This document shows, one piece after another, positions 14,265-40,258 of a DNA stretch of 42,897 bases (the first letter of the stretch is position 1; each line of letters starts with the position of its first letter). The notes under the pieces are model-generated. The model saw nothing but the letters and a program-made list of their open reading frames with translations. It did no database searches and was not told the origin of the DNA. Made by a program: the position numbers and the translations under genes. The stretch is from a virus: the IMG/VR virus record IMGVR_UViG_3300025311_000005, positions 1 to 42,897 of that record; one strand, given 5' to 3'.

Positions 14265-14345
14265 CTATGCACTCCTTGCCCGACCCTGCCAAACCTCTGC
14301 GGGCCATTCCACAGCTGTCCATGCCGAACCCTGCCGAGCCCGGCC
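14224..14345 (-). repeat. Degenerate 5-bp array (NNNGG on minus strand), short copy
   Basis: On the plus strand CC falls at every fifth base (positions ending 4-5 and 9-0) from 14224 to 14345. By direct count, 21 of 25 positions in phase are CC; the exceptions are 14264, 14269, 14299 and 14314. Read on the coding (minus) strand this is GG every five bases, mostly GGC followed by two variable bases. The array begins just past the 3' end of the 200-codon gene and extends through the ribosome site and start codon of the 102-residue gene into its first 13 or so codons. Confidence 0.85.
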
Positions 14346-14349
14346 GGCC

Positions 14350-14952: not shown

Positions 14953-14970
14953 GTGATTCTCCTTATGGAT

Positions 14971-15140
14971 GCCATGCCAAACCCGAGCACACCGAACCGC
15001 GCCTAACCCGGCCAGGCCGGGCCCAGCCGAGCCACTCCTTGCCTTGCCACGCCCAGCCTTGCCTCGCCAGGCCGTGCCCCATCGCGCCACGCCGCGCCGA
15101 GCCTGATCCAGCCCGGCCTTGCCATACCATTCCTCGCCCC
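14971..15140 (-). repeat. Degenerate 5-bp array (NNNGG on minus strand), long copy
   Basis: Strict 5-bp periodicity. On the plus strand CC occupies bases 2-3 of each group of five (14972-73, 14977-78, ... 15137-38). Counting each position gives CC in 31 of 34 units; the exceptions are at 14987, 15082 and 15107. No base was inserted or lost over about 170 bp. On the minus strand, the sense of the downstream gene, units read GGC plus two variable bases (GGCAA, GGCTG, GGCGT, GGCCG and so on). It lies between the stop of the glycosyltransferase at 15161 and the ribosome site of the 200-residue gene, so it would be mRNA leader or intercistronic RNA. Confidence 0.9.
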
Positions 15141-15160
15141 TGTCCGGCCCTTCCACGTAG

Positions 15161-16102: not shown

Positions 16103-16731
16103 AGCGGCAGCACCTCTTGGCGCAGACGCTTGACGGTGATCTCGCAGTATTTCGGCTCGATCTCGATGCCGATGGCGCGGCGGCCGAGATCCTTCGCCAT
16201 GCGCAGGGTCGTTCCACTTCCAGCGAACGGGTCAAGCACAACCGCTCCGGCAGAAATCAGCCTGTCGATATAAACCGCGCCGTCCGCGCCCTGCTGCCAA
16301 GGGTGGTCTTCTTTCTCTCTCGCGGTGCGCGTCGTGTCGGTAATCGGTGGCGATACAGGCAGGGCAGGCGGCTTGCGGCACCAGATGATTGGTTTCCAGT
16401 GAGCACCAACACCTCGCGACCAGATGACGGCGTTACCACCAGCGTGCAGGCAAGCCACTAACCACCAAAACTCGAGGTGCTTGACCATCTTCGGCAACGT
16501 GTCGTAAATGAATCGGTGGCCCGCATAGGCGAAGCAATGCCCCCCGGGAACCAATACGCGCGCCCCATGCTCAGCAACGAAAGGATACGCCCAGGTGAAC
16601 TCGTAAAGATACGGAGGATCGGTCCAGATCATGTCTACTGGACCATCCACCAATGGCAGCACCTCCCGGCAATCCCCGCAGTACAGCGTGACGCCGGGCT
16701 CCTCGTAGAAGAGGAAGTCGCGAAGGATCAC
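16099..16731 (-). CDS. DNA methyltransferase, N4-cytosine/N6-adenine, beta-class
   Basis: 210 residues. Motif IV is DPPY at 38-41, preceded by VDMIW, and motif I is DPFAGSGTT at 167-175 followed by GRRAIGIEIEPKYCEI. The DPPY-before-FAGSGTT order marks the beta class, which methylates exocyclic amino groups of A or C. The target-recognition part is only about 100 residues, so the recognition site cannot be read. No restriction partner is adjacent; both neighbours are sugar genes coupled by ATGA. An orphan phage methyltransferase guarding against host restriction is the likely role. Confidence 0.88.
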   Translation of the reverse strand: MILRDFLFYEEPGVTLYCGDCREVLPLVDGPVDMIWTDPPYLYEFTWAYPFVAEHGARVLVPGGHCFAYAGHRFIYDTLPKMVKHLEFWWLVACLHAGGNAVIWSRGVGAHWKPIIWCRKPPALPVSPPITDTTRTAREKEDHPWQQGADGAVYIDRLISAGAVVLDPFAGSGTTLRMAKDLGRRAIGIEIEPKYCEITVKRLRQEVLPL

Positions 16732-17693
16732 GCGAGCGCCCTCCGCACCGTAGCGATCACCGTCGCCTGCTCGCTCTCCGTCAGGTCCACCGAGCAGGGC
16801 AGCGAGATGCCGTACTCCGCCACGTGTCGCGCCACCGGAAAGTCACCGTCGCGCCGGCAGTCGGCGAAGAGCGGCAGGTCTGGCAGGCAGGGCCAGACGT
16901 GTCGTGCCTCGACGCCCGCGGCTTGGCAGGCGGCGACTACGGGCCCGGCGGGCACGGGCAGGAGCCCGACCGGCTGCCAGTAGGTGATCGATGGCTGCCA
17001 CGGGATTTCGGGCAGCTCCATCGCATAGCGCCACGCGAGCTGCTGCTTGCGCGCGATGGTCTGCGTCAGCATCTCAAGCTGGGCGCACATGACGGCGGCC
17101 TGGAGGTTCGACATCTCGAAGGGCCAACCGAGCGCGTCCCAGATGTGCGGCGCCCCAGGCACGCGAGCGCCGCGGATCAGGTGGCGCATCCGGTCGGCCT
17201 CGTACTTCGCCGCGCACAGTACGGCGCCCCCGCCCCCGCCCGTGGCGAGCTTATTCTGATTGAAACTCAGGACGCCGAAGCGTCCGCGCAGGGTCCAGGC
17301 GCCAAGCGCCTCGCAGGCGTCGTCGATCGGCGCTGTCCCTGGCGCGATCATGCCGTAGAGATGCACCTGGACGTCCACAGGCACGGCGGCGCCCCAGGTC
17401 ACCGGGTCGATGTCCACGAAGAGCGGCCACGCCCCCCAGAGCCGTGCGGCTTGCGCGGGCGCCAGATACGTGAGCGCCGGCATGCGGTACACCGGGCGGC
17501 GCGAGGCTTCCATCGCCAGGAACAGGCCCGCGGTGCCGCTCGACACGCAGACGGCGTACCCGCCGCACTGACGCGACAGCGCCTCCTCGAGCCGGTCGAG
17601 GTAGGCGCCGCGCATCAGCTCGCCGCGCTGCATCGCGTCGCGCACGTACTCCTCCTGCCGTGGCGCGAGAAAGGGCATGCAGTGCGGGATCAC
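16728..17693 (-). CDS. DegT/DnrJ/EryC1 family sugar aminotransferase
   Basis: 321 residues, somewhat shorter than the usual 360-390. Recognisable PLP features are SSGTAGL at 51-57 (phosphate loop), IDDACEALGA at 123-132 (Asp pairing with the PLP nitrogen) and the internal aldimine Lys148 within SFNQNKLATGGGGG. This family converts a 4-keto nucleotide sugar to a 4-amino sugar. Its partner is the upstream SDR dehydratase. Start and stop overlap neighbours as ATGA. In nonulosonic acid pathways this is the LegC/PseC step. Confidence 0.88.
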   Translation of the reverse strand: MIPHCMPFLAPRQEEYVRDAMQRGELMRGAYLDRLEEALSRQCGGYAVCVSSGTAGLFLAMEASRRPVYRMPALTYLAPAQAARLWGAWPLFVDIDPVTWGAAVPVDVQVHLYGMIAPGTAPIDDACEALGAWTLRGRFGVLSFNQNKLATGGGGGAVLCAAKYEADRMRHLIRGARVPGAPHIWDALGWPFEMSNLQAAVMCAQLEMLTQTIARKQQLAWRYAMELPEIPWQPSITYWQPVGLLPVPAGPVVAACQAAGVEARHVWPCLPDLPLFADCRRDGDFPVARHVAEYGISLPCSVDLTESEQATVIATVRRALA

Positions 17694-17869
17694 AGGCCGA
17701 ACACTCGCTTGACTATTTCTAGTTCAGCCATATCAGGACAGGCGAGATTCGTGGGATATTCTAGCCACTGCTCACCATCAGTCCACAAGCGTCGTAGTGA
17801 TGGATACTCGGGTGGGCGTTCTTTGATCCAGGGGCGAAATGGACCCCAGAACACGCGCAATCTTTTCAT
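17690..17869 (-). CDS. 59-residue unknown protein between SDR and aminotransferase
   Basis: ATG at 17869 and stop at 17690, both ATGA-coupled. It is rich in Trp, Arg and Pro (RLRVFWGPFRPWIKERPP, LRRLWTDGEQWLEYP) and has one Cys. Nothing in it suggests an enzyme. It separates the dehydratase and aminotransferase genes that would act in consecutive steps. Confidence 0.55.
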   Translation of the reverse strand: MKRLRVFWGPFRPWIKERPPEYPSLRRLWTDGEQWLEYPTNLACPDMAELEIVKRVFGL

Positions 17870-18759
17870 CGATACGCCTCCCACGTCGCCCGCAATCCCA
17901 GCGCGAGCGGGACGCGCGGGCGCCACCCGGTCAGACTCGTCAGGCGCTCGATGCCTGGGATGCGCGCGCGCGGGAAGCCGCGCAGGGCGGAGCCGATGAT
18001 GATCGGGCGCTCAATACCCGCGACGTCCTGCAGGCGCTGCATGAGCCGGCGCATCGTCACGGGCTCCTCGGGATTGCCGATGTTCACGATCACGCGATCG
18101 AGCGTCATCGCCGCGAGGATGCCCTGCACGGCGTCGGCGATGTAGCAGAACGCGCGGATCGCGGTGGGGTCCTCGACGGTGACATGGTCGCCGGGGTCCC
18201 GGAGTTGCAGGCAGAAGCGCGGGATGACGTGGTCCGTGCCCATGCCCGGACCGTAGACGTTGTGGAAGCGCCCGATCACGTAGGACTGCCCCGAGAGGAT
18301 CGCTGTCGTCTCCTGCCACACCTTGCCGACCGCGTAGGCGGCGCGCGGCGCGGTCAGGTCCGGGATCACCACCGGCGCGTCCTCGCTGGTAATCGGGCAG
18401 TGCCCGCCGTAGAGTTCGGACGTCGAGGCGACGAAGTGCTTTGTCGCCTTGATCGCATGGAGCCATGTTGCAGACACGGAGGCGACGGTCGCCGTGCGTC
18501 CGGGCTCGCGCTCGACGTTGGGGACACCGACAATCGCGGCGAGGTGGAAGCACCAATTCCAGGGAGTCAGATTCCAAAAGTCGATGAGCGCGGGCATCTC
18601 GCAAATATCGAAATCGCACACACGACATGCATTAGGCAGCGGAATGCCTGTATTCCGCATTCTATTGTCGATGATCGAGACCTCGTGTCCGAGCGCGACC
18701 AGCGCCTGCGCGAGGTGCGAGCCGATGAAGCCGGCGCCGCCGATGAGAAGGCATTTCAC
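17866..18759 (-). CDS. NAD-dependent nucleotide-sugar epimerase/dehydratase (extended SDR)
   Basis: 297 residues. The NAD site GGAGFIGS lies at 7-14. The active site shows STSELYG (112-118) and YAVGK with Tyr142 and Lys146. Thr-Ser-Glu in this position, as in GDP-mannose 4,6-dehydratase (ASTSELYG), favours a 4,6-dehydratase over an epimerase, because the Glu performs the elimination. A GRFHNVYGPG stretch follows. It would make a 4-keto-6-deoxy sugar nucleotide for the aminotransferase, the LegB/PseB-type first step. UDP versus GDP cannot be told. Confidence 0.85.
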   Translation of the reverse strand: MKCLLIGGAGFIGSHLAQALVALGHEVSIIDNRMRNTGIPLPNACRVCDFDICEMPALIDFWNLTPWNWCFHLAAIVGVPNVEREPGRTATVASVSATWLHAIKATKHFVASTSELYGGHCPITSEDAPVVIPDLTAPRAAYAVGKVWQETTAILSGQSYVIGRFHNVYGPGMGTDHVIPRFCLQLRDPGDHVTVEDPTAIRAFCYIADAVQGILAAMTLDRVIVNIGNPEEPVTMRRLMQRLQDVAGIERPIIIGSALRGFPRARIPGIERLTSLTGWRPRVPLALGLRATWEAYR

Positions 18760-19118
18760 GGCGTCTCCTCCAGATTCAACAGGGCTGGATTCAAGACACC
18801 AGTACCCGCATTGGCACGCTCGCCTTCGTGTCCGATTTGCGTCTCCAGGTTATGCCATCGGCGCAACGTCTCGCCCCACGCCCACGACGTCGCCAGTACA
18901 CTGACCGCCGCGCCATACATGAATCTCGTGATGCCGTCGGTGTTGGCATCATGGCTCGCCTGTTTCGCCACAGATGTAAGCAACGCCTCGTCCCCGCCCG
19001 CGCGTTCCTCGATGAGGTTCGCCCAACGCTCTGCGTACTCGATCACGGCCTGTCCGTACCCACTGTCCATGTTTGCGTCGCGCCACTTCTTCCATGAGGT
19101 CTCGTCGCTGATTTTCAT
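18756..19118 (-). CDS. Phage protein of unknown function, 120 residues
   Basis: ATG at 19118 with AGGAGG upstream; stop overlaps the SDR start (ATGA). A helical protein with a conserved-looking core MYGAAVSVLATSWAWGETLRRWHN followed by GHEGERANAGTGVLNPALLN. This pattern is familiar from other phages as an early protein without known function. It is an island of ordinary phage sequence within the sugar cluster. There is a 22-bp gap to the preceding gene, so it has its own ribosome site. Confidence 0.6.
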   Translation of the reverse strand: MKISDETSWKKWRDANMDSGYGQAVIEYAERWANLIEERAGGDEALLTSVAKQASHDANTDGITRFMYGAAVSVLATSWAWGETLRRWHNLETQIGHEGERANAGTGVLNPALLNLEETP

Positions 19119-19140
19119 GGCGTTTCCTCCTGTGCGCGGA

Positions 19141-19950
19141 TCATGGCGTCCATTCCTGCAATAGCCGTACTATGCGCGGCACGCTCTGGCCGTCTCCGTA
19201 GGGCACGCGCTCCCGTCCCTGCTGGCGCACGCCGATCTCGACGGTGCGCAGCCCGACGAACGGCGCCTCGATGACGAGGGCCGAGGAGTTCCCGATCAGC
19301 ACGTCCGCCTCATAGAGGAGCGCACGCCATGCCGCGTCCGTGACACAGTCCACCATGCGGTCGCGCGTGTAGCGCTCGCGACCGGGGTCCTGACAGGGCG
19401 TGAACCACAGCGCCTGCCGGTCGCCGATCGCGGCGACGCACTGGCGGTATTCCGCCTCGGCGTCCACGGTCGCCCGCGTCGTCGGATGCAAGATCACGAG
19501 CGCCCAGCGGCGAGCCGCGTCCAGACGCAGATGCCGCGCCAGGACGCTGCGCGCCATGTGCGGGCGCGTGAGCCGGTCGAGCCCCGGCGCCCCAGTGACG
19601 TGGATCGTCTCCTCGGGAATGCCCATTGTGAGCAGGCGCTGGCGGTGCAGGTCATGGCAGCAGAGCCGGAGCGCGGCGATCCGCGAGATGAAGTGGCGCA
19701 CGTCGTCGTCGAAGGCGTGGGGCGTGGATTCCCCAGCGTGCAGCTGGATGATCGGCACGCCTTCGCCGAGGGCGCGGCAGGCGATCTCGCCCATCTCCCA
19801 GCGGTCGGTGGGAATGATGAGCCCCTCCAGGTGCCGCACGGTGCGCGCCGGATGATGCACCCAGGCGCACCGCAGCGCCTGGCGCAACTCGCCCGTGTGC
19901 CCCCAGTCGGAGCGCGCGACGGTCGCGATGCCGAGGCGCCTCACATCCAT
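19141..19950 (-). CDS. Hydrolysing UDP-sugar 2-epimerase, NeuC/LegG-like
   Basis: 269 residues against about 370-390 in the family. Clear landmarks are a WGHTGELRQAL start, TDRWEM, LHAGE (usually HGGE), DDDVRHFISR, VTGAPGLDRL and GNSSALVIEAPFVGLRTVEIGVRQQGR, the last being the signature of NeuC/LegG/PseG-neighbour epimerases. About 60-70 residues usually found between the start and the TDR(W/Y)EM motif are missing, so it is a compact form. The reaction releases UDP and inverts C2, giving the free amino sugar for the next enzyme. It overlaps the synthase gene upstream by 10 bases. Confidence 0.82.
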   Translation of the reverse strand: MDVRRLGIATVARSDWGHTGELRQALRCAWVHHPARTVRHLEGLIIPTDRWEMGEIACRALGEGVPIIQLHAGESTPHAFDDDVRHFISRIAALRLCCHDLHRQRLLTMGIPEETIHVTGAPGLDRLTRPHMARSVLARHLRLDAARRWALVILHPTTRATVDAEAEYRQCVAAIGDRQALWFTPCQDPGRERYTRDRMVDCVTDAAWRALLYEADVLIGNSSALVIEAPFVGLRTVEIGVRQQGRERVPYGDGQSVPRIVRLLQEWTP

Positions 19951-20648
19951 GTCTCCGCCTCCCGGATACGCTGGACATACATGTCAAAGGCGGCTGGCAC
20001 GAGCGAGACCGCATAGTCCGGATTCGTCTCTGGGGTGCAGTTCAGCATCACGTGCGCCTCGATGATCTGCGCGCCGGCTAGGACCGCACGGGCGCCGGTC
20101 TCCCACCATCCCGTATGGTCGGAGAAGCCGTGCAGCCCGTACCTGTGGATCATACTGAGCGCCATCTCCTTGGCGAGCGTCGGATACTGCGGGATGCAGT
20201 GGAGGTACTCGAAGCGCTTGTGGCGCCGCCGCCCGTTGAGTTGGGCGTGGGACCATCCGCCCGTCGAGACCACGATCGGGGCGCTCTCATCGTGCCAGAA
20301 CCAGTCAAGGAGCAAGTCGTCGCTGCGCGAGGATTCCCAGGAGCCGACCTTGCGGCGATGCGTCAGCGGGGCGATCTTCATCACGTCCTCGCGGAGGTAG
20401 ACGGTGCACATCGCCTCGACTGACGTCGGAATATCGTGGAGCCACTCCGCAGGCATCCGGTAGTGTTCGAACCACGCCGCATCGCCCCCGCGTCCGCGAT
20501 GCGTCGCCATCTTCAGGCTGTCGGACCAGTACTGGCCCTTGATCGCGTCGGCGCCGGCCTCCACCGCCACGTCGATGAGGCGGCGCCAGGTGTCGCGGTC
20601 GCCCTCGTGCGCGATGCCGAGCTCAGCGATCACGTAGGTAGGCGGCAT
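19941..20648 (-). CDS. Nonulosonic acid (N-acetylneuraminate-type) synthase, NeuB-like, lacking SAF domain
   Basis: 235 residues. The TIM-barrel signatures are in order: VIAELGIAHEGD (6-17), GADAIKGQYW (32-41), LHCIPQYPT (149-157), GFSDHTG (174-180), IIEAHVMLN (195-203) and NPDYAVSL (209-216). The enzyme condenses a 6-carbon amino sugar with phosphoenolpyruvate. Known NeuB proteins have about 340 residues and end in an antifreeze-like (SAF) domain that completes the partner's active site; here the gene stops straight after the barrel. The start at 20648 lies inside the NeuA gene (26-bp overlap). Confidence 0.85.
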   Translation of the reverse strand: MPPTYVIAELGIAHEGDRDTWRRLIDVAVEAGADAIKGQYWSDSLKMATHRGRGGDAAWFEHYRMPAEWLHDIPTSVEAMCTVYLREDVMKIAPLTHRRKVGSWESSRSDDLLLDWFWHDESAPIVVSTGGWSHAQLNGRRRHKRFEYLHCIPQYPTLAKEMALSMIHRYGLHGFSDHTGWWETGARAVLAGAQIIEAHVMLNCTPETNPDYAVSLVPAAFDMYVQRIREAETWM

Positions 20649-21186
20649 AGTGGCGCTCCGCGCGCACGAGATCGTGTTCGTTGTCGATGTTGATATGCGC
20701 CGGGCCGACGAGGTCCACGCACCGCGGTCCCATGATGCGGCCGGCGTCGAGGCACGCCCGGCGCGTGGTGTAGACGCTCCCGTTTGGATGCCCATGCGCG
20801 ACCGTGACCGTGGAGTCCGCCTCGAAACGGTCGAGCGCCTCGATGGCCTCGTCGATCTCGATGCCGAGACGAAACGGTACTGTCGGCTGGAGCGTGACGA
20901 TGACTGTGGACGCCGGATAGAACTGCACCGCATGTAGGAGCACCGGAAGCGTCGGCGTCTCATCCTGCGCCAGATACTCCGGCCGCAGAATCCACGCGCA
21001 GCGCAGACGCGCCGCCTCCTGCACGATCGCGTTGTCGTCCGTGCTCACGACGATCTCATCAAGTCGCGTCGCCGCGCGGGCGCTCTCGATCGCCCAGGCG
21101 ACGAGCGTCTTACCGCCGATCTCGCGCAGATTCTTGCGCGGGAGCCGCTTGCTGCCGCCGCGCGCGGGGATGACGGCGAAGATCAT
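20623..21186 (-). CDS. CMP-nonulosonic acid cytidylyltransferase, NeuA-like
   Basis: 187 residues from the ATG at 21186 (ATGA over the preceding stop). The N-terminal IPARGGSKRLPRKN (6-19) is the nucleotide-binding motif of CMP-sialic acid, CMP-Leg and CMP-Pse synthetases. DEIVVSTDD and LQPTVPFR segments follow, then a HINIDNEHDLVRAE C-terminal motif typical of the family. The length is somewhat below the usual 220-230. It activates the nonulosonic acid with CTP, giving the donor for a glycosyltransferase. It sits directly before the NeuB- and NeuC-like genes. Confidence 0.88.
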   Translation of the reverse strand: MIFAVIPARGGSKRLPRKNLREIGGKTLVAWAIESARAATRLDEIVVSTDDNAIVQEAARLRCAWILRPEYLAQDETPTLPVLLHAVQFYPASTVIVTLQPTVPFRLGIEIDEAIEALDRFEADSTVTVAHGHPNGSVYTTRRACLDAGRIMGPRCVDLVGPAHINIDNEHDLVRAERHYAAYLRDR

Positions 21187-21353
21187 GTTTGAACCTGCCA
21201 CTCTTCGATATCGGCGAATTCCCATGCGACGTCGGTCGAACCTCCTTGTTTCTTATGCTCACGTATTGCTGCATTTGCGGCCTTGCTTGTGGCATAGACA
21301 CTCAAAATTTCGCCGCTTTCGATATCATGGAAGATCACCACAAAGACTTTCAT
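21183..21353 (-). CDS. 56-residue unknown protein
   Basis: ATG at 21353, ATGA-coupled at both ends. It has the compact alpha/beta pattern KVFVVIFHDIESGEILSVYA, then an AANAAIREHKK helix and an acidic/Trp tail. This resembles the many short proteins phages use as modifiers, but no specific family is evident. Confidence 0.6.
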   Translation of the reverse strand: MKVFVVIFHDIESGEILSVYATSKAANAAIREHKKQGGSTDVAWEFADIEEWQVQT

Positions 21354-22207
21354 CGCAGCCTCTCCGCGAAGTCGAGCACTCGGATCGCCTCGTCCATCGT
21401 GCACAGCCTGTTGTTGCTCTCGCCCGTCATCCGCAGCGTATGCAGCTCCTGCGCCTCGTGGAGGAGCCACGCGGAGGGATCTTCCCACGCGGGCTTGATC
21501 TGATCGGGTTCCTCCAGGTACTCCCGCCTCCACTCCACCACGCCGCGCTCGCCGATCACCTTGAGCCGCGTCTCGTGGGGCGACCAGAAATCCATCCGCA
21601 GCGTGCCCTCGAAGGCCATGCCGAGCTCATCGGCGTACCACCGCAAGCTGGCGCAGCACTCATCGCGATAGGCGAACCCGTCGATGTCGAGCGGCATGCC
21701 GAACATCTGGAGCAGCAGATCCAGCATGTGCGAATGCTCCAGAAGCACGCCGCCCTCGGCCGGATCGGTGAGCCACGGCTGACGCTCGAGGGGGCCTTGC
21801 TCGCTGTACACGGCCTCGAGCACACGCACCGGGGCGATCCGCGCGATGGCGTCCTTGAGCTGGAGCGTCGCCAGCGCGAAGCGGAGACAGTAGCCGACGT
21901 AGACATGGGCGCCCGCGGCGAGCGCGGCGTGCTGGAGCCCGTCCGCCTCGGCGGCACTCGTCGCCAGCGGCTTCTCCACCAGCAGCCAGCGCGCACCGAC
22001 GTCGAGCGCGGCCATGACGTCCGTGACGTGCTGACTCGGCGGCGTCGCGATCACCACGAGATCCGCCCCCTCGACCGCCTCGCTCCACCGCGCCACGGTG
22101 CCCCGGTTTGGCACGACGTCGTAGACCGCCACGTCGTAGCCGAGGCGCGCGAAGTTATGGGCGTGCCTGCGTCCGATGTGACCCCCGCCGATTACGGCGC
22201 ATTTCAT
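21350..22207 (-). CDS. Gfo/Idh/MocA family oxidoreductase
   Basis: 285 residues from the ATG at 22207, preceded by GAGGGG. The NAD(P) motif GGGHIGRRHA is at the N-terminus, VVIATPPSQH near residue 70, and LLVEKPLATSAAEA near residue 95, which contains the EKP active-site motif of the family. A beta-sheet domain follows. The family oxidises or reduces sugars, often nucleotide sugars, and occurs in nonulosonic acid and other glycan clusters. Its step here is unknown; an extra modification of the sugar is plausible. It is TGATG-coupled to the preceding gene. Confidence 0.85.
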   Translation of the reverse strand: MKCAVIGGGHIGRRHAHNFARLGYDVAVYDVVPNRGTVARWSEAVEGADLVVIATPPSQHVTDVMAALDVGARWLLVEKPLATSAAEADGLQHAALAAGAHVYVGYCLRFALATLQLKDAIARIAPVRVLEAVYSEQGPLERQPWLTDPAEGGVLLEHSHMLDLLLQMFGMPLDIDGFAYRDECCASLRWYADELGMAFEGTLRMDFWSPHETRLKVIGERGVVEWRREYLEEPDQIKPAWEDPSAWLLHEAQELHTLRMTGESNNRLCTMDEAIRVLDFAERLR

Positions 22208-22578
22208 CACAATCCCCTCGTGAACAATTCTTTCGCTCGATGCCAGAACGGGCGCGTCTCTGAATGCGTGATGGCGGCCGGCTTCGATTCTTCGCGATGG
22301 CGGATCGCGCAACCACGATGAGCGTATACGAGTCCGGCATCAGCCAAGAAACCGATTGACGTGAAATCGTCAATGCCCCCGAGAAACCCTCGGACATGAC
22401 AGTACTTACATTCGACGTGCGCCCAACCATCTCTGTAGGCGTCCCAGCTTTCCCAGCCACCCGGACGCTCATGCTCATCACAACCGAACCATGCTGCATC
22501 TTTCAGCTTAAAGCACCCACATGCGAGTACTCGTTCAGGCGGCGTACTCCATGACCAAGGATCAGTCGTCGGCTTCAT
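22207..22578 (-). CDS. Cys-rich protein, possible zinc binder
   Basis: 123 residues from the ATG at 22578, overlapping the O-antigen ligase-like stop. Cys/His pairs are CGCF (20-22), FGCDEHE (31-37), CKYCHVRG (57-64) and AHRGCAIRH (86-94), enough for one or two zinc sites. No enzyme motif is seen. It lies between a membrane glycan-assembly protein and an oxidoreductase. Confidence 0.55.
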   Translation of the reverse strand: MKPTTDPWSWSTPPERVLACGCFKLKDAAWFGCDEHERPGGWESWDAYRDGWAHVECKYCHVRGFLGGIDDFTSIGFLADAGLVYAHRGCAIRHREESKPAAITHSETRPFWHRAKELFTRGL

Positions 22579-23612
22579 ATCAATCTCGCGCTGATGGTGA
22601 GCAGCATGAGCCCCAGCACCGGGTGGCGCCACGGCCAGTGGACGAGCGAGATCACGGCGCCGGCCACCCAGGCCGCCGCCCAGGGATCGCCGAGCCGCAG
22701 ATGCCAGACGATCGGCGCGGCGAAGGCGAGCACGCCCACGAGTCCGACGAGCCCGTATTCGTAAAGCACTTGGAGGGGTTCGTTGTGGGCCTCGCCGATC
22801 GGCAACTCCCTGACGGATCGGGAGCCCCAGAGACGCCCCGCGGTCTTGAGGCTGCCCGGCCCGCACCCGAACCAGCGGTGTCCGTCGCGCCACCAGCCGC
22901 GGAGCAGGCACCGCATCATGGCGACCCGAGACCAGAGCCCGTCCGGGGAGTCGCCCCGCGGCGTCCGTTCGAGCACGCGCCAGCCCGTCAGCCGTGTCAG
23001 GACCACCGCCAGGATGCCGCCTGCGGTCCCCAGCGCCCCCAGGAGCCACGAATCCGGGTGGACCCAGATCAAGGCTACCCCCAGCGCCAGAAAGGCCGTC
23101 CAGGAGCACGTCAGGTAGAGCCCGATGGCGAGGAGCGGCCATCCCCACCAAGGGCAGAACGGGGCGAGCAGGACGAAGTAGAAGCTGCTGACCACGGGGG
23201 AGCCCAGGAGCCCCTTGGTGCGGCGCCCCCAGCTCCGGCGCTTGACCGCTGACCAGTCCGCCCTCTGCAGGACGAGGCACCACGCGACGTGGTAGACGGC
23301 GCCAGCCAGCCACGCCCAGGGGAGCCAGATCCAGGCGGTCTCGGGCAGCGTGCGCAGAAGGCCCCAGGTGGCGGCGACGGCGACCCAGCCAAGGAGCGGG
23401 CCGTGCAGCTCCATGCTGCGCCAGCGGACGAGGCACCAGAACGCGAGGATCGCCAGCCATGCGGCGCCCTGCCAGGCGAACCAGGCGATCCCGAGCAGCA
23501 GCAGCGCGCGCAGCCAGCGGTTGCGTGCCGCGTGGATGTCGGCGTCGCAGACCATCTTGATCGGATTCCAGGGCGCGAGCGCGACGGCGGAGGCGACCAG
23601 CCAGGGGATCAT
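22575..23612 (-). CDS. O-antigen ligase/polymerase-like membrane protein (WaaL/Wzy type)
   Basis: 345 residues with about nine hydrophobic segments from the ATG at 23612. The C-terminal half has the signature of the O-antigen ligase/polymerase superfamily: an SRVAMM segment near 228, a GCGPGSLK turn near 249 and EAHNEPLQVLYEYGLVGLVG with His276, followed by further membrane segments. In bacteria these inner-membrane enzymes join undecaprenol-linked glycans on the periplasmic side. It sits in the sugar cluster with coupled neighbours on both sides. Ligase, polymerase or a regulator of the host enzyme cannot be told apart. Confidence 0.75.
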   Translation of the reverse strand: MIPWLVASAVALAPWNPIKMVCDADIHAARNRWLRALLLLGIAWFAWQGAAWLAILAFWCLVRWRSMELHGPLLGWVAVAATWGLLRTLPETAWIWLPWAWLAGAVYHVAWCLVLQRADWSAVKRRSWGRRTKGLLGSPVVSSFYFVLLAPFCPWWGWPLLAIGLYLTCSWTAFLALGVALIWVHPDSWLLGALGTAGGILAVVLTRLTGWRVLERTPRGDSPDGLWSRVAMMRCLLRGWWRDGHRWFGCGPGSLKTAGRLWGSRSVRELPIGEAHNEPLQVLYEYGLVGLVGVLAFAAPIVWHLRLGDPWAAAWVAGAVISLVHWPWRHPVLGLMLLTISARLI

Positions 23613-23749
23613 GGACGCGTGGCGATGGCGAGCAGAAGCCAGATATATAGATCGGCGTCGTTGACATTCCACATTCCTCGCATGATCAGCAGCACGAGCA
23701 CTGTCGCTAGAGCGATGAAATGTATAGGAGCAGTTAGACTGAATTTCAT
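23609..23749 (-). CDS. 46-residue membrane peptide
   Basis: ATG at 23749, ATGA-coupled at both ends. Two hydrophobic stretches (residues 6-24 and 34-43) flank MWNVNDAD. It immediately precedes the O-antigen ligase-like gene and may be a companion peptide, similar to small phage inhibitors of the host O-antigen polymerase. That comparison rests on size and location only. Confidence 0.55.
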   Translation of the reverse strand: MKFSLTAPIHFIALATVLVLLIMRGMWNVNDADLYIWLLLAIATRP

Positions 23750-24468
23750 CGCCGCCTCGACACGCGGTAACCGTCGCGCTCCCAAACCAACTCCAACTCG
23801 CGGTAGAGGTATGCGCACGTCTCCTCGCGCTGTGCCTCGGTCGCGAGGTCCAGATCGTTGCGCAAGGGATTCCCGACGAAGTTCCAGTGCAGCACGCCGC
23901 CCGGCGCCAGCTGGGTCCGCAGCCACTTCGCCGCCGCCAGAGGATCGCTCAAGTGCTCGAATACATCGAGCGCCGTGATGACGTTATAGGGAGCCACCGC
24001 GCGCGCGACGTCTCGGAGACGCCACTGGGCATAGCGGAAATGCGGCGCCGCCGCGAGGTCCACGACGTGATACTGCCACTGTGGCTTCTGCCGCACGCAG
24101 TACGTGGTGACCGGCGCGATGCCGCAGCCGTATTCCATCAGCGCGCCGTGCGTCCCGCGCATCGTCCAGAGGACGCGCCGCCACGCGCTGTGGCGCCGGT
24201 GGACCAGATTGCGCCAGAGCATGTAGTCGCACTCGGTGTAGAACGCGAGCGCCTCGGCTTCCGTCATCACGGGCTTCAGGCGCTGCTCGGCGTCCAGGCG
24301 CTTCAGGGTGTATCTCACCCACATTTCCTCGGGCGTCATCCGCGGCTGCGCGAGATAGGTCTGAAACTCCTGGAGCCACGCTTGCGGCCAGCCGAGTTTC
24401 TCCGCGAGCCGCCGCAGGCGCGGCTCCCAGCGGTCGAGATGATGCGCGAGGGTCAGTCGCGCGCGCAC
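23746..24468 (-). CDS. SAM-dependent methyltransferase, class I
   Basis: 240 residues. The Rossmann SAM motifs are LMEYGCGIAPVT (motif I, about residue 110), HVVDLAAAP (acidic residue binding ribose), NVITALDVFEHLSDP and LAPGGVLHWNFVGNP. An N-terminal 100-residue helical part precedes the core. The VFEHLSDP/PGG pattern is that of small-molecule or sugar methyltransferases. It overlaps the preceding deacetylase-like gene by 16 bases. A glycan O-methylation is likely from context but unproven. Confidence 0.78.
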   Translation of the reverse strand: MRARLTLAHHLDRWEPRLRRLAEKLGWPQAWLQEFQTYLAQPRMTPEEMWVRYTLKRLDAEQRLKPVMTEAEALAFYTECDYMLWRNLVHRRHSAWRRVLWTMRGTHGALMEYGCGIAPVTTYCVRQKPQWQYHVVDLAAAPHFRYAQWRLRDVARAVAPYNVITALDVFEHLSDPLAAAKWLRTQLAPGGVLHWNFVGNPLRNDLDLATEAQREETCAYLYRELELVWERDGYRVSRRR

Positions 24469-25037
24469 AGCGCCGCCTCGAGCTCGTCCATACTGTCCTC
24501 CCAGTGCAGCACGAAGTCGCGGTCATGCCAGACGCGCCAGCCCTCGGGCACCGGGGAGCCCGGCGCCACATACTGCGTCACAGGTACGCCGAGCGCGTAG
24601 CCGAACCACTTGCAGCCGACCGAGGGCTCGATCGCCTCCGGCTCCCGATGCCAGGCGCGGTTACTGCCGATCCAGCGCGGGAGGTGTCGCCCACGATCCG
24701 GGATGCAGTGCGTCCAGCCGTGGAGCGCCACCTCGATGGAGCCGCGCGTGGCGTGCGCGACGACGACGCGCGCCTGATCGGGGAACTTCTCCGCGTAGGG
24801 CAGGAGCGTGCCGTCCGCCTCGACCCAGTTCGCGGTGATCGCCACGGTCAGGACGCGGCGGGCGCGGGCACAGGCGGAGAAGATTATCTCCATCTGCCAA
24901 GGCGCGAGCTCGCGGTACGGTCCCCACGCGCCGAAGAGCCGCCGGTCGTGCAGCGGCCAGACGTTCGCCCAGCGGTGGCGCGACCAGCGCTCGTACTGCT
25001 TGCTGCTGGCGCCGAGATCGTCGAGGCGGAGGTTCAT
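24453..25037 (-). CDS. Polysaccharide deacetylase-like protein
   Basis: 194 residues. It begins almost directly with the metal/base motif LRLDDLG (3-9, Asp6-Asp7). It has VALHGWTH (103-110, His106 and His110) at the position of the second NodB motif and YVAPGSPVPEG for the third. This short form with an RLDDLG start is seen in a branch of deacetylase-like proteins in glycan clusters. It would act on a cytoplasmic sugar because no signal peptide is present. It is less certain than the deacetylase at 11856. Confidence 0.65.
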   Translation of the reverse strand: MNLRLDDLGASSKQYERWSRHRWANVWPLHDRRLFGAWGPYRELAPWQMEIIFSACARARRVLTVAITANWVEADGTLLPYAEKFPDQARVVVAHATRGSIEVALHGWTHCIPDRGRHLPRWIGSNRAWHREPEAIEPSVGCKWFGYALGVPVTQYVAPGSPVPEGWRVWHDRDFVLHWEDSMDELEAALCARD

Positions 25038-33833: not shown

Positions 33834-35504
33834 GTGCGGATTCCGACCATCCCGGACGGTCGTGGGGCCGAGACAGCTTTCCAGAGCAGGAAGGCGCTCT
33901 ACATCAACACCTTGAGGGAGTGCGAGGTCTCCCGTGAGGACCGCGCCGCGACCGCCAGTAGTCTCAAGACGGCCTTCCTCACGGGCTCGCTCAGCGCCGC
34001 CAGCGTCCGCTACAACAAGCTGAAACAGCACGGGATGAGCGTGGCGAGCGCGCTCTACTCCCCGGAGAGCGTGCGCTTTTCGCCCTATCTCCCGCCGCAT
34101 TACCACATGGACGCCTACCTGGCGCGGATGCCCGCCGTCCGGGATGCGCTGGAGGCGGTCTGGAGCGCGTCGGACGCTGGCGCCGTGTTCAACATGGGTG
34201 TGCGCGCCGCGTACTACACGGACTGCGTCACCTTCAAGGTGCTCACGAGCAACGGCGCGCCGACCGTGGCGCTGATCTCCGATCCTGGCGACCTCGGCGT
34301 CTGGGAGGAGATCAGCGACGACTTCGTGCATCAGGAGGCGCTCTGCCACTGGTACTCGATGAGTCTCCCCGCCTTCTGGCGCCTGATCTCCGGCAAGCCC
34401 GCCTCGATGCGCGAGCGCCTCTGGGCCATCGCCCAGGAGCACCGTTCGCGCCGGCCCTACGGGCGCGATGACGCGCTACCGCCCACGGTCGAATCGCTGA
34501 TCGTGTTCTCGACCTCGCCGACGATGGCCGGCGAGGCGAACGTGGCGGGCCTGGACGCGACGATGGCGAAACCCCAGGTCGCGGCCGACGTCGTGCGGCT
34601 CGCGGAGCTCTGGATCTGGGACGACGCGCTGGCGGACTACCGCGTCGTCACGTTCCTCTTGCCGACCGAGACGATCGTCCGCGACACGGGCAATCCGCTC
34701 TTGCCGGGCGAACATCCGTTCTACCCGCTGACGCTCGACCCGGTGCCGGGGTACGTCTGGGGCCTGGCCCCGATGCGCTATTTGATCGGGCTCCAGAACT
34801 GGCGCGAGAAGAAAATGTTGTCGATGGACGATCGGGACGAGAAGCAGATCGACCCGCCGCTCGTCCTGCTCGGCTTCGGGAACCTCGTGGACAACGAGAA
34901 GGCCAAGGCGTTCCGGAAGGCCGGCGGCACGCTGGCCGCGAACAACCCCGGCGCGGACGTCAAACCCGTGATCCCGCCCCCGATCCCCGATCCGCTCTAC
35001 ATGATCGACGCGATCGACCGGATGTGGGAGAACATGGAGTCGCTCCCGACCGGGGCCGGCGCCCGCGGGCTCGGGCCAGCGAGTGCCGAGGACGACCTCA
35101 TGGCGAAGGCGCTGCTGTCCTCCGGCCCCACGCTCAACCGCGCGATGCTGGTGGAGCGCTGCATCGAGCGCGTCGCCACGGCGCTGCTGCGGCTCGAGCG
35201 GCGCCGGAAGGAGCGCCCGCTGTTCACCACGGAGGGCGAGCGCTTCTATCTGTCGCAGATGCCGGCCGCCCTGGCCGCGCGGGTCTGGGCGCACTCGGCC
35301 TCGCCGATCTTCGCGCAGCAGATCATGAGCAAGGCCCTGGCCGCGCGTCAGACCGGGGACATCACCGGGGAGGACTTCTTGGAGTTCCTCAACCTGCCGG
35401 GGCTCGACCTCCTGCGCCCGAAGGCGCGGCGCATCGCCGAGGCGCAGGCCGAGCATCAGGACAAGGTGATGCAGGTCGCCAAGCTGAAGGCCCTGAAGAA
35501 GTAG
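33834..35504 (+). CDS. Portal protein
   Basis: 556 residues from a GTG at 33834; there is no other usable start in frame. The N-terminal helical part (CEVSREDRAATASSLKTAFL), MGVRAAYYTDCVTFKVLTSN, then GYVWGLAPMRYLIGLQNWRE and the long helix with SAEDDLMAKALLSSGPTLNR are typical of podoviral head-tail connector proteins. The size agrees with T7 gp8 (536). It forms the dodecameric ring at the head vertex. The gene is followed by a methyltransferase, an unusual neighbour, and no terminase was seen upstream. Confidence 0.82.
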   Translation: MRIPTIPDGRGAETAFQSRKALYINTLRECEVSREDRAATASSLKTAFLTGSLSAASVRYNKLKQHGMSVASALYSPESVRFSPYLPPHYHMDAYLARMPAVRDALEAVWSASDAGAVFNMGVRAAYYTDCVTFKVLTSNGAPTVALISDPGDLGVWEEISDDFVHQEALCHWYSMSLPAFWRLISGKPASMRERLWAIAQEHRSRRPYGRDDALPPTVESLIVFSTSPTMAGEANVAGLDATMAKPQVAADVVRLAELWIWDDALADYRVVTFLLPTETIVRDTGNPLLPGEHPFYPLTLDPVPGYVWGLAPMRYLIGLQNWREKKMLSMDDRDEKQIDPPLVLLGFGNLVDNEKAKAFRKAGGTLAANNPGADVKPVIPPPIPDPLYMIDAIDRMWENMESLPTGAGARGLGPASAEDDLMAKALLSSGPTLNRAMLVERCIERVATALLRLERRRKERPLFTTEGERFYLSQMPAALAARVWAHSASPIFAQQIMSKALAARQTGDITGEDFLEFLNLPGLDLLRPKARRIAEAQAEHQDKVMQVAKLKALKK

Positions 35505-36165: not shown

Positions 36166-36288
36166 ATGCAACGTTTGGGCCGTTACCACGCCCGCAGCGT
36201 GCGGAAGAACGTCGCCAAGGCCCGCACGTCGCGCTGGGCCGGGGGCACCCGGCAGACCGCGCGGCGGATGCCGCGGGGCCGACGATGA
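36166..36288 (+). CDS. Short arginine-rich protein
   Basis: 40 residues, ATG at 36166, ending in ATGA overlap with the next gene. The sequence is Arg/Lys/Ala-rich with RYHARSVRKNVAKARTSRW and RQTARRMPRGRR, similar to a nucleic-acid binding peptide. It starts a few bases after the operator-containing promoter. Its length and charge suggest a DNA- or RNA-binding role; otherwise unknown. Confidence 0.55.
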   Translation: MQRLGRYHARSVRKNVAKARTSRWAGGTRQTARRMPRGRR

Positions 36289-36632
36289 ACGGCGCGACCG
36301 GCCCGACTGCGCCCGCGACGACGCCCGCTGATAACTCCGGCCTGCACGTTCGCGGGAAGATCCAGGTCAACATCGCGCTCAAGACGCTGACGCAGGCCGT
36401 GCAGCTCCTCGGCGCCGAGACCGAGGACGGACGAATCGTGCTCGAGGCGCTGGCGAAGCTCAGCAAGCAGTTTGGCGAGGCGGCGCAGGATCTCACGCGG
36501 CAGGAGATCGCGATGATGGCCGAGAACGCCGCGCCCGCGGGGCCGACCCCGGCCGGCGGGATGAGCGACTTCCGGCAGATGACGCAGCAACGCATGCCCC
36601 CGGCGATGATGGCCGGCGGGCCAGGAGGGTAG
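36285..36632 (+). CDS. Small head-operon protein
   Basis: 115 residues. Middle part KIQVNIALKTLTQAVQLLGA and ALAKLSKQFGEAAQDLTRQE are amphipathic helices; both ends are Ala/Pro/Met/Gly-rich and disordered. The place just before the scaffold suggests an assembly or minor head protein. No family recognised. Confidence 0.55.
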   Translation: MNGATGPTAPATTPADNSGLHVRGKIQVNIALKTLTQAVQLLGAETEDGRIVLEALAKLSKQFGEAAQDLTRQEIAMMAENAAPAGPTPAGGMSDFRQMTQQRMPPAMMAGGPGG

Positions 36633-36634
36633 TC

Positions 36635-36850
36635 ATGGGTGATGGACTCGTCGGACCGCAGCGCTACCCCATAAGGGATCCGAAAAGCAACTCGAAGCGC
36701 AACGGCCGGATGGTGAATTCGCCCAGGTACGCCGACATGGGCGGCCTCACCGGCCCCGGCAAGCTTCCGGCCGGCGGCGACTTCGTGCCCGAGGCGCCGA
36801 CCGGCGTCAAGAGCGCGAAGAAGACTTCGGCACGCAGCCAGGAGGGCTAA
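36635..36850 (+). CDS. 71-residue Gly/Pro/Lys-rich protein
   Basis: ATG at 36635 with GGAGG upstream. A disordered basic protein (RDPKSNSKRNGRMVNSPRYA, then PTGVKSAKKTSARSQEG). Its location between two head-assembly genes and its low complexity suggest a minor head or DNA-contacting component. No domain seen. Confidence 0.55.
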   Translation: MGDGLVGPQRYPIRDPKSNSKRNGRMVNSPRYADMGGLTGPGKLPAGGDFVPEAPTGVKSAKKTSARSQEG

Positions 36851-36853
36851 GCC

Positions 36854-37399
36854 GTGGCGAACGAACAGGTCGATATCCGCGCCGTCCTGATGGAGGCGCT
36901 CGACAACGACCCGGAGACGCGGCCGAAGTTCCGGGCGCTCGTCAAGCAGAAGTTCCCGAAGGCGCCGATTCCCGAGGTTGACCTCGATCAGCGCTTCGAG
37001 GCGCACAAGACGGAGCTACGGCAGGAGCTGGAGGCCGAGCGCCTCGCGCGCAAGAAGGACAAGGACGCGGCCGATCTGGCCGCCGCCCGCCGCGCCGTCA
37101 TGGAGGACCCAGAGCTCCGCATCACCGAGGACGAGATCCCCGAGGTCGAGAAGATCATGCAGGATTCGACACTCGGGCCGATCGCCTCGCACAAGGCGGC
37201 GGCCATGCTCTACCGCAGCATGCAGGCCGTGGCGACGCCGCGGCCGTTCGCCCTGACGGCCGACGTGCCCGGGATGGGGGCCAGCGCCGAGCAGTACAAG
37301 GGCATTCTCGACGACCCGCAGAAGTGGCGGGGCGGCCGGATCGAAGAGATCGTCAACGACTTCCGCAACGGCCGGGGTCACAAGTGGCCGGTGGCCTGA
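36854..37399 (+). CDS. Scaffolding protein (candidate)
   Basis: 181 residues from a GTG at 36854 with AGGAGGG upstream. A long charged helix (FEAHKTELRQELEAERLARK, then KDKDAADLAAARRAVMED) and an Asp/Glu-rich character are typical of phage scaffolds, and the gene sits just before the capsid-region genes. The C-terminus (GRIEEIVNDFRNGRGHKW) could be the capsid-binding part. Called by composition and place, not by homology. Confidence 0.6.
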   Translation: MANEQVDIRAVLMEALDNDPETRPKFRALVKQKFPKAPIPEVDLDQRFEAHKTELRQELEAERLARKKDKDAADLAAARRAVMEDPELRITEDEIPEVEKIMQDSTLGPIASHKAAAMLYRSMQAVATPRPFALTADVPGMGASAEQYKGILDDPQKWRGGRIEEIVNDFRNGRGHKWPVA

Positions 37400-37421
37400 C
37401 ATGCAGCAAGGAGGCGCGCCC

Positions 37422-38078
37422 ATGCGTCGGATGATCGCACTCGTCACGTTCACGCTCCTCCTGCTCGGCGCCGCGGCGCCGGCCCTCGCCCAGGTCCGCG
37501 CCCCGGTCGGTCCGGGCGGGCTGCTCTACTGGGACAATGCCACGCGGTCGTATGCCAACGACCGCACGACCCAGCACAAGCTCCTCGGCCTGCTGATCCC
37601 GCCGTCGCTCATGGCGACGCAGCCGGTGCCCAACACCACGAGCATCTGGCCGACCTCCGCGCCGATCAGCGTCAAGATCATCGGGCAGTTGACCACCCTG
37701 ACGACCGTGCAGGCCGCGCTCGGCATCAACTACGGCTCCGGCGCGACGCTCTCGCTCATCAACAGCGCCGCGTTGACGAGCGCGAACGAAGGATTCAGCG
37801 ACGCGCCCTTTGAGCTGACGGTCTATCTCGTGCCGCTGGCGACGACCTCGGCGACGCCGAACATGGCGAACTCGCTCTGGATGCAGGCCAGGTTCGCGAC
37901 CCGTGGGCTGACCAATGCCAACGCCGGCCAGGTCGAATACACGGCGCGCGTGCTGGGGACCTCGGTGCTCGCTTCCCCGACCGAGTTGAACATCTACTGG
38001 CGCTGGCTCGGCGCGGCCGTGACGGGCGGTAGCAGCGTGCTCCGCGTCCACTCGACCCAGGTCAAGATCGGACTGTAA
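37422..38078 (+). CDS. Exported protein with signal peptide in the head operon
   Basis: 218 residues from the ATG at 37422, chosen because AAGGAGG lies seven bases upstream (an in-frame ATG at 37401 has none). Residues 1-24 (RRMIALVTFTLLLLGAAAPALA) are a classic signal peptide with an ALA-Q cleavage site. The mature part is beta-rich (PISVKIIGQLTTLTTVQAAL, ELTVYLVPLATTSATPN) and ends in a beta strand with RVHSTQVKIGL. A phage head operon gene with an export signal is odd: the product would go to the periplasm or outer membrane rather than into the virion assembly in the cytoplasm. Confidence 0.65.
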   Translation: MRRMIALVTFTLLLLGAAAPALAQVRAPVGPGGLLYWDNATRSYANDRTTQHKLLGLLIPPSLMATQPVPNTTSIWPTSAPISVKIIGQLTTLTTVQAALGINYGSGATLSLINSAALTSANEGFSDAPFELTVYLVPLATTSATPNMANSLWMQARFATRGLTNANAGQVEYTARVLGTSVLASPTELNIYWRWLGAAVTGGSSVLRVHSTQVKIGL

Positions 38079-38081
38079 GGC

Positions 38082-39242
38082 ATGACGCTCTCCCGCGCCT
38101 GGTGGGTGCCGGTGGCCGGGGCGCTGCTCGCGCCCCTCGTCACCTGGCTCCCGATGCTCGCCCACGAGTACCCCGGGCTCGGGCTGCCCGTCTACGCGCC
38201 GCCCATCGGCATCGACCTCTGGCAGAGTCAGGTGTTCTGGGCCGTCGCGTTCGCCGCCGTCGGCGCCGCGCTCTGGGTCCGTGACCGCTGGCTCGGCGTG
38301 CTCCTCTGGCTCCTCGCGGGCAATCTCCTGATCCGCGGCTCGCTCTTCGACGGCTCGCACTTCGCCGTCGTGCTGTTCGGCGTGCTCGCGCTGGTGGCCC
38401 TCCGGCAGACGCCGCGCGTCTGGCACGGGCGCCTGCGCCTGATCCTCGCAGTCTCCGGCATGGTCCAGGTCGCGTACATGCTCCAGCAGGCGGTGCTCCA
38501 CTACGATCTCCTCTGGGGGCCGGTGGTAGGCGGCGTGCTCGTCGCCAAGGTGCAGCCGCTCGGCACCCTGGGGACCGTGGACGCGGCGAGCGCCTACGTG
38601 GCGATCACCGCGCCGCTGATGCCGCTCTGGGCGCTCCCGTTCGGCGTCTGGGCGATCTGGGAAGGGCGCTCGCTGACCGCGATCGCCGCGTTCGGCGTCG
38701 GCCTCCTGGCTCGCTGGCTCATGCAGGAGGACCGCCCGCGCGTGCGCGCTGTCGGCCTCGCGGCGGCGCTCCTGACGCTCGGCGGCGCCGTCATCGCGGT
38801 CGGGCTCTGGAAGCACGCGGTCTCGCCGACCATCCCGGGCTGGGGCACGGTGACCGGGCGCCTCACGATCTGGGCCTTCGCGCTCTCCGACTGGTGGACG
38901 CAGGGGCTGTTCCACGGCTTCGGGTTGTCCTCCTGGTCGCTCCGCATCCCGATGCTCCAGCAGCAGGCCGGCGTGCTGCCGAACGGGGAGCTGTGGGCGC
39001 AGGCGCATTCCGAGCCGATCCAGGTCGCCTACGAGACCGGCGTCCTCGGGATGGCCGTCCTCGGCGCCTGGCTCCGCGACCACTGGCGCGCGTGGCAGTC
39101 TCCCGCGTGGGGGCCGGCGCTTGGCGCGCTGGCGGTCTCCACGCTTGGCTTCTTCACGTTCCACGTCGTCTCGACGGCCTTGCTCGGACTGGTGCTGTTC
39201 GGCCTCGCGTCCGCACAGACGGCTGAGGCCCACGGAGGGTAA
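38082..39242 (+). CDS. O-antigen ligase/polymerase-like membrane protein within the late operon
   Basis: 386 residues with about ten hydrophobic segments. The second extramembrane region has GTLGTVDAASAYVAITAPLM, like the GTFGN-xx-xxAxxLxxxLPL motif of WaaL/Wzy proteins. The C-terminal loop carries GRLTIWAFAL (259-268) and HGFGLSSWSL, then QAHSEPIQVAYETGVLGMAV with His309. This is the same architecture as the minus-strand homologue at 22575, although the two are highly diverged. It sits between a signal-peptide gene and the capsid gene. The enzyme would join or polymerise lipid-linked glycan at the inner membrane. Confidence 0.72.
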   Translation: MTLSRAWWVPVAGALLAPLVTWLPMLAHEYPGLGLPVYAPPIGIDLWQSQVFWAVAFAAVGAALWVRDRWLGVLLWLLAGNLLIRGSLFDGSHFAVVLFGVLALVALRQTPRVWHGRLRLILAVSGMVQVAYMLQQAVLHYDLLWGPVVGGVLVAKVQPLGTLGTVDAASAYVAITAPLMPLWALPFGVWAIWEGRSLTAIAAFGVGLLARWLMQEDRPRVRAVGLAAALLTLGGAVIAVGLWKHAVSPTIPGWGTVTGRLTIWAFALSDWWTQGLFHGFGLSSWSLRIPMLQQQAGVLPNGELWAQAHSEPIQVAYETGVLGMAVLGAWLRDHWRAWQSPAWGPALGALAVSTLGFFTFHVVSTALLGLVLFGLASAQTAEAHGG

Positions 39243-39247
39243 CCACA

Positions 39248-40258
39248 ATGGCTCTGCTCGGCGGAATTTTCTCCGGGGCATCACAGGCGCAGCAGGACGA
39301 GCTGCAGGCCGTCACCCGCTACGCGGCCGTGCCGGCGTGCATCGTCCAGATCTACCAGTTCGACGGGTGGCTGTCGGCCGCGCTCTCGCAGGCCAAGATG
39401 GTCACCGGCGGCATGACGTCGATCGTCGTGCCGGTCCAGGGCGCGCCGCTGACGACGGCCGCGGCCATGGACTTCACGGGCTCCTTCTCCGCGCCGTCGG
39501 GGCAGACCGGGATCAAGCAGGCCAGCGGCGTTCTCAAGGGCGTCATCGTGCCGATCGGGTTCCAGGGCATGGAGGGCATCATCCAGGACAACGCCGCCCT
39601 GATCCCGCTGGTCGAGGCGCGGATGAACGACGCAGGGAACCAGGTGGCGGACTACCTGTCGAGCCAGGCGTGGACGAACACGTCCGACATAAACATCAAC
39701 ATCACCGGCTGGCCCGCGATCGGCAGCGCGACGAACACCTACCTCGGCCTGGACCGCACGGTCGAGACCTACATGCAGGCGTGCCTCCGCACCGGCGGGG
39801 CGATCACGCGGCAGATGATGCTCGCGTCGATCATCGACGGCATGCAGTTCGGCCTCGGCGAGATGCCGAACGTCGGATTCCTCTCGGTCGGCGACTGGTA
39901 CGCGCTCGCCGCCGACTTCATCGCGGACGAGACCTATCAGGTCCAGCCCGGGACCGGCTTCGACAAGTCCGAGGGCCGCGGCGGGTTCACGGCGCTCAGC
40001 GTCGCGGGCGTGCCGCATTTCATGAGCACCAGGCTCGCGAACGGCACCGCGTACCACTACAACACGCGCTACGACCACATGTACATTCACCAGATGGCGC
40101 CGTTCGCGTTCACGGGCTTCGCCTCGACGCTGCCGGCGCTGTCGATCGGCTACATCGGCTGTCTGGTCGCGATCCTCGAGCACGTCAACGTCAAGCCCCG
40201 CACTGTCTGCGTGACCTCGAGCCTGACGGGCGGGATGACGGTCACGGCCGCGCCGTAA
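39248..40258 (+). CDS. Major capsid protein (candidate)
   Basis: 336 residues. The N-terminus has LLGGIFSGASQAQQDELQAV. The body contains GIKQASGVLKGVIVPIGFQG, VADYLSSQAWTNTS and DETYQVQPGTGFDKSEGRGG. ATG at 39248 follows GGAGGGTAACC. The length and the mix of an N-terminal helix with beta strands fit an HK97-fold podoviral capsid protein, and it lies at the expected place after the scaffold. Called from context and general pattern. Confidence 0.75.
   Translation: MALLGGIFSGASQAQQDELQAVTRYAAVPACIVQIYQFDGWLSAALSQAKMVTGGMTSIVVPVQGAPLTTAAAMDFTGSFSAPSGQTGIKQASGVLKGVIVPIGFQGMEGIIQDNAALIPLVEARMNDAGNQVADYLSSQAWTNTSDININITGWPAIGSATNTYLGLDRTVETYMQACLRTGGAITRQMMLASIIDGMQFGLGEMPNVGFLSVGDWYALAADFIADETYQVQPGTGFDKSEGRGGFTALSVAGVPHFMSTRLANGTAYHYNTRYDHMYIHQMAPFAFTGFASTLPALSIGYIGCLVAILEHVNVKPRTVCVTSSLTGGMTVTAAP

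Follow-up and report, generated by a model that had tools for sequence, protein, structure and literature searches.

The O-antigen-ligase domain is common to WaaL and to O-oligosaccharyltransferases (O-OTases), and on its own it does not tell whether an enzyme glycosylates proteins or ligates LPS (PMC12645811). For TfpO, TfpM and PglS, the cognate substrates are often encoded near the enzyme (PMC12645811). Among phage proteins, Wzy-beta of phage D3 is a known O-antigen polymerase that alters LPS (PMC4815439), and VarioGold carries an O-antigen-ligase-like gene, VG_p25, outside its structural genes (PMC9658991). In PMC11256854, mycobacteriophage glycosyltransferase genes are taken to glycosylate the capsid. 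An enzyme encoded beside its acceptor is a known principle; the setting of a phage head operon is not known to us. A phage pair of this type was not described in the open-licence literature, a scope that leaves out most subscription journals, and tblastn of the INPHARED cultured phages with five ligases detected no relative.

Here we analysed the window, a whole stretch of viral DNA of 42,897 nucleotides (IMG/VR record IMGVR_UViG_3300025311_000005). It is a fragment, as one contig extends ~14 kb beyond its right end (42897) and another extends ~11 kb before its left end (position 1). The reading that we favour, with some reserve, is that the genes at 37422-38078 and 38082-39242 form an acceptor-enzyme pair, in which the periplasmic target of glycosylation is an exported protein of virion type and not host LPS. 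This points to a phage-encoded system by which sugar chains of the host are attached to a particle protein.

A Wzy_C superfamily gene and its neighbours in the head operon

The relevant part of the window contains the following features.

33834 to 35504, plus strand: portal-like gene, named from position and synteny, with no profile match
36285 to 36850, plus strand: two small conserved genes (115 and 71 aa), found upstream of the scaffold-like gene in relatives
36854 to 37399, plus strand: scaffold-like gene, named by position, which adjoins the capsid gene in relatives without the pair
37408 to 37414, plus strand: strong ribosome-binding sequence AAGGAGG of the partner gene
37422 to 38078, plus strand: partner gene, for an exported beta-sandwich protein of 218 aa with a Sec-type signal peptide, proposed as glycan acceptor and virion-surface protein
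38082 to 39242, plus strand: ligase gene, for a proposed phage O-oligosaccharyltransferase, a membrane protein of the Wzy_C/O-antigen-ligase superfamily (386 aa; R260, H309)
39248 to 40258, plus strand: major capsid protein, phrog_9953 (PHROG major head protein, E 5.8e-6)

The ligase gene starts with ATG and encodes ~10 hydrophobic segments. Its product matched Pfam Wzy_C (PF04932) with an E-value of 9.4e-7 and 29.2 bits, just below the curated cut-off of 31.7, and several relatives encoded at the same position exceed this cut-off. Eighteen of 21 aligned ligase-type proteins matched the PF04932 profile at E <= 0.01. R260, G281, A308, H309, E311 and G320 were invariant across all 21, including a second Wzy_C protein encoded on the minus strand of the window. 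The loop of the window ligase reads H309-S-x9-G-x2-G and is an exact match to H[NSQ]x9Gxx[GTY], which we take to be the periplasmic-loop motif of the O-antigen-ligase superfamily. The sole solved structure matched by a profile of the 21 proteins was that of the O-antigen ligase WaaL (7TPG/7TPJ, E 4.2e-5). When the profile was aligned to 7TPG, R260 lay opposite Arg265 of WaaL (by our own count) and H309 opposite the His of the AHN motif. The window protein is a member of the Wzy_C superfamily and retains both the Arg and the His of the ligases. An earlier note, made from the sequence alone, had described a ten-segment WaaL/Wzy-type membrane protein and had pointed to the conserved His and Arg as a check; both the description and the residues are borne out here.

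Among NCBIfam families, the best match of the 21 proteins was the O-OTase TfpM, which was weak (E 0.0017, two proteins, below the cut-off), and the window ligase had no TfpM match in this search. No Pfam match to PglL_A or Wzy_C_2 was found among the 21 proteins; these domains are absent from TfpO and TfpM too (PMC12645811). A structure model of the window enzyme was poor (pLDDT 59), and Foldseek returned no match.

The gene order is scaffold-like gene, signal-peptide partner, ligase and capsid, with the ligase gene directly before the capsid gene. The earlier note had placed the ligase between scaffold-side genes and capsid; the position is correct, but the signal-peptide gene in between had been overlooked. 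The longest open reading frame of this partner gene begins at 37401. Its Sec-type signal peptide, called like all signal peptides in this study by a home-made rule rather than by SignalP, is MRRMIALVTFTLLLLGAAAPALA, with the predicted cleavage directly before Q. The ligase gene starts 3 bases past the partner stop codon, and no ribosome-binding sequence was seen before it in the window. The partner was modelled as a beta-sandwich (pLDDT 77). Matches of this model in the PDB were weak, and the viral matches were phage appendage domains (TMq up to 0.6) and were not specific. No cement or decoration profile of Pfam or PHROG matched the window partner.

Recurrence of the gene pair in phage head operons

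Ligase and capsid searches recovered the order scaffold-like gene, signal-peptide protein, ligase and capsid in 11 genotypes that share the capsid family of the window (the window, L009, L010, L017, L018, L019, L020, L103, L108, L110 and L098). The insertion that the earlier note had suggested seeking in related phages is found at the same place in all of these. The window ligase is 39-45% identical to the clade ligases, and the window major capsid protein is 45-49% identical to its counterparts in L009 and L010. In L017, a second partner homologue is located after the ligase. Further relatives (L021, L022, L026, L034 and others) have a capsid gene of the same type and no ligase, and here the capsid gene follows the scaffold-like gene directly. 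A homologue of the partner was found in none of the ligase-less loci examined in the window clade. Because partner and ligase are present or absent together among relatives, we regard them as a two-gene cassette. In pairs of relatives similar enough for measurement, the ligase had a dN/dS of 0.20-0.27, the partner of 0.31-0.46 and the capsid gene of 0.03-0.17, which shows purifying selection on the ligase and the partner in these comparisons. The constant place of the ligase in 11 genotypes, together with this selection, argues for more than chance.

To the clade we added more distant loci, located with the ligase profile and all in head-gene regions (L112, L115, L119, L114, L120, L139, L137, L122 and L117). 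The gene directly upstream of the ligase could be read in 20 head-gene Wzy_C loci, and in every one of them it encodes a Sec-type signal peptide. Under a strict signal-peptide rule, this was the case for 17 of 20 phage loci compared to 0 of 23 cellular Wzy_C loci, a limited control that comes from one bacterial family with short upstream stretches. For the three phage loci missed by the strict rule (L009, L017 and L108), the signal peptide was evident by eye or under a looser rule. The 20 loci span three recognised capsid families, with Phage_capsid_4 in L112 and L119, phrog_9953/SU10-like in L114, L120 and L139, together with L137, and Phage_capsid_2 in L122; no family was recognised for the L117 capsid. 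The pair sits before the capsid gene in some loci and after it in others. In most loci, partner and ligase are separated by 0-6 bases or share a short overlap; the extremes are an overlap of 25 bases and a gap of 39 bases, apart from L117, in which the overlap reaches 119 bases. L139 has two tandem signal-peptide genes ahead of its ligase.

This recurrence bears on whether the arrangement is a chance one, or the ligase-like gene an unrelated membrane protein without glycan function, such as a holin-like protein or an export helper. The poor enzyme model and the lack of a fold match would agree with this, but the Wzy_C matches of 18 of 21 proteins, the invariant catalytic residues, the match to WaaL in the PDB, the purifying selection and the recurrence in three recognised capsid families all speak against it. 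We consider such an explanation very improbable.

The partners were also compared with virion protein families and known glycosylation sites. Those of L112, L119 and L114 weakly matched Phage_cement_2 (E 1.8e-4 to 5.5e-3, below the cut-off), and that of L114 also matched a head-decoration family (7e-4). The C-terminal residue of the window partner is Leu, and the rest of the window-clade partners end in neither Ser nor Thr. Across all loci there is no general Ser ending; L122 is the one listed exception, judged by its last residues only. No known O-OTase sequon was found in the partners, and the sequon search gave nothing specific. The Ser/Thr content of the partners (13-29%) was only somewhat higher than that of the capsid proteins (14-15%).

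The partners are not the only exported proteins of these phages. In the window clade, phages with the ligase had 22 signal-peptide genes, partners among them, in a total of 158, whereas relatives without it had none in 136 (p 1e-6). Further structural-looking genes with signal peptides were observed 3' of the capsid gene in L009, L010, L017, L018, L020, L098, L103, L108, L110, L119, L120 and L139. One such protein in L018 (gene at 13673) has a signal peptide and its L020 homologue (at 12114) is without one. The extra signal-peptide genes are consistent with a wider export of surface proteins in the ligase-bearing clade.

As a separate observation, the capsid open reading frame has an in-frame N-terminal extension in L018 (8367-9503), L107 (9714-10862), L098 (9681-10868) and L108 (about 9131-10294). 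The extension consists of a signal-peptide-like stretch and a hydrophobic segment. The best ribosome-binding sequence lies ahead of the upstream start, and none was found ahead of the usual start. A major capsid protein targeted to the membrane would be very unusual, if this is so.

Exported phage proteins could also act at the cell envelope. The partner would then be glycosylated or anchored there, block receptors against superinfection and stay out of the virion. The signal peptide, the resemblance of the partner fold to phage appendage domains and the presence of several other structural genes with signal peptides in these phages are in keeping with such surface display, but cement or decoration families are matched by the partners of three loci. 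A virion role is the simpler one because of these three matches and the coupling of the pair to capsid genes, and we regard surface display as improbable.

The second Wzy_C protein, the sugar operon and the host

The window encodes a second Wzy_C protein next to genes for sugar synthesis.

19141 to 22312, minus strand: core of the sugar operon, four genes
19141 to 19950, minus strand: UDP-GlcNAc 2-epimerase
19941 to 20708, minus strand: NeuB
20623 to 21225, minus strand: cytidylyltransferase
21350 to 22312, minus strand: GFO/IDH oxidoreductase
22575 to 23672, minus strand: second Wzy_C protein, in the sugar operon (Pfam Wzy_C E 2.3e-7)

The four core genes probably encode a CMP-nonulosonic-acid route. 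They lie in a large sugar operon on the minus strand (11856-25037), in which DegT, an epimerase, a formyltransferase, a methyltransferase, a deacetylase-like gene and a DNA methylase were also observed. The second Wzy_C protein is 30% identical to the head-operon ligase over 170 aa, and its loop reads H296-N-x9-G-x2-G. The earlier note had reported a diverged superfamily member at 22575, a loop shared by both proteins and different contexts for the two copies, one in the head operon and one in the minus-strand sugar operon, and our analysis agrees on each of these. There is no signal-peptide gene upstream of the minus-strand copy, which makes it a useful internal contrast to the paired ligase. 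Other long window-clade records have one Wzy_C match each, and this is the head-operon one.

These sugar genes bear on the possibility that the head-operon protein is a ligase or polymerase for host LPS. Such an enzyme would act on lipid-linked host O-antigen and change or cap LPS late in infection, with serotype change, superinfection exclusion or less re-adsorption of progeny as effects, and the partner would be an unrelated neighbour or a helper. WaaL is the sole PDB match, LPS-altering phage genes of Wzy type are known (D3 Wzy-beta, PMC4815439; see also the O-antigen-ligase-like gene of VarioGold, PMC9658991), and the window itself encodes nonulosonic-acid genes and a second Wzy_C protein. 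However, what accompanies the enzyme across several capsid lineages is not a glycan gene but an exported protein of virion type; the place in the head operon differs from that of the VarioGold cluster, found apart from the structural genes; and a search of the phage records detected NeuB in just three, with the window phage (G011) among them. Action on host LPS would account for the enzyme but not for its constant partner, and we consider this main alternative unlikely. The earlier note had suggested the host glycan or the host ligase as a possible target; this is not supported, as 20 of 20 head-gene loci pair the enzyme with an exported protein of virion type, a pattern that favours this protein as the acceptor. 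A required link of the ligase to nonulosonic-acid genes was also considered and was dropped since NeuB occurs in few of the phages.

Among genome contigs, only L098 (VBID01000050.1) has the pair, and it is binned in a Chloroflexi MAG. A host assignment from this bin was rejected, as the gene was in none of the other 399 Chloroflexi genomes searched (400 in total).

Proposed mechanism and comparison with known systems

We infer that the partner is the acceptor of the ligase because the tight coupling of the enzyme to an exported protein of virion type holds in 20 of 20 loci. In the periplasmic glycosylation that we favour, the partner, a putative virion-type beta-sandwich protein, would be exported by Sec, and the ligase would be an inner-membrane O-oligosaccharyltransferase of the Wzy_C superfamily. 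The enzyme may take a glycan from its lipid carrier at the periplasmic face and transfer it to the partner through a presumptive O-linked bond. Since the partner is exported and capsids form in the cytoplasm, the two could join only at lysis. This inability to meet cytoplasmic capsids earlier counts against the pair acting as acceptor and enzyme for the virion. The glycosylated partner would have to wait in the periplasm and bind capsids once lysis mixes the compartments. The outcome would be glycan-coated virions, with camouflage, stability or less re-adsorption to debris as a possible benefit.

More tentatively, the pair could be a widespread and repeatedly acquired phage cassette, in which a surface protein is exported, O-glycosylated en bloc in the periplasm and added at lysis, so that virions wear host glycan. 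If so, virion maturation would not be confined to the cytoplasm, and tailed phages would own a dedicated O-glycosylation system for a virion protein, parallel to pilin glycosylation, with part of the particle made in the periplasm. This would hint at a way in which some phages in the environment camouflage their virions or make them more stable, would offer new enzyme-acceptor pairs for glycoengineering and would provide a hypothesis for the function of signal-peptide genes in phage head operons.

Like phage cement and decoration proteins (Phage_cement_2, phrog_122), to which they show weak matches, the partners of L112, L119 and L114 adjoin the capsid gene. Unlike those proteins, the partners have signal peptides, and the window partner has no such match. 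Mycobacteriophage virion glycosyltransferases are thought to act in the cytoplasm, whereas a periplasmic en bloc transferase is proposed for the window phage. With WaaL (7TPG), the window ligase shares detectable homology and the catalytic Arg and His; in contrast to WaaL, it has no adjoining LPS core genes and has a constant exported-protein partner. Like D3 Wzy-beta (by its description) and VG_p25, it is a phage-encoded multi-segment protein of Wzy type (PMC4815439, PMC9658991). It differs from VG_p25 in its place in the head operon beside the capsid gene, and VG_p25 lacks the AHxE motif. In VarioGold (L142, OP296522, 21080-23229), a cultured Variovorax phage, the Wzy_C gene VG_p25 directly follows a signal-peptide gene, VG_p26, and these two genes could be a cultured relative of the pair arrangement.

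In comparison with TfpO and TfpM, the window partner lacks a terminal Ser sequon, and the NCBIfam matches to TfpM, in two of the 21 proteins, are weak. What the locus has in common with TfpO/PilO, TfpM and PglS is an enzyme of the Wzy_C superfamily, an exported protein encoded nearby and a proposed en bloc transfer in the periplasm (PMC12645811). What sets it apart from these systems is that it is phage-encoded, lies in a head operon and has a partner of virion type rather than a pilin.
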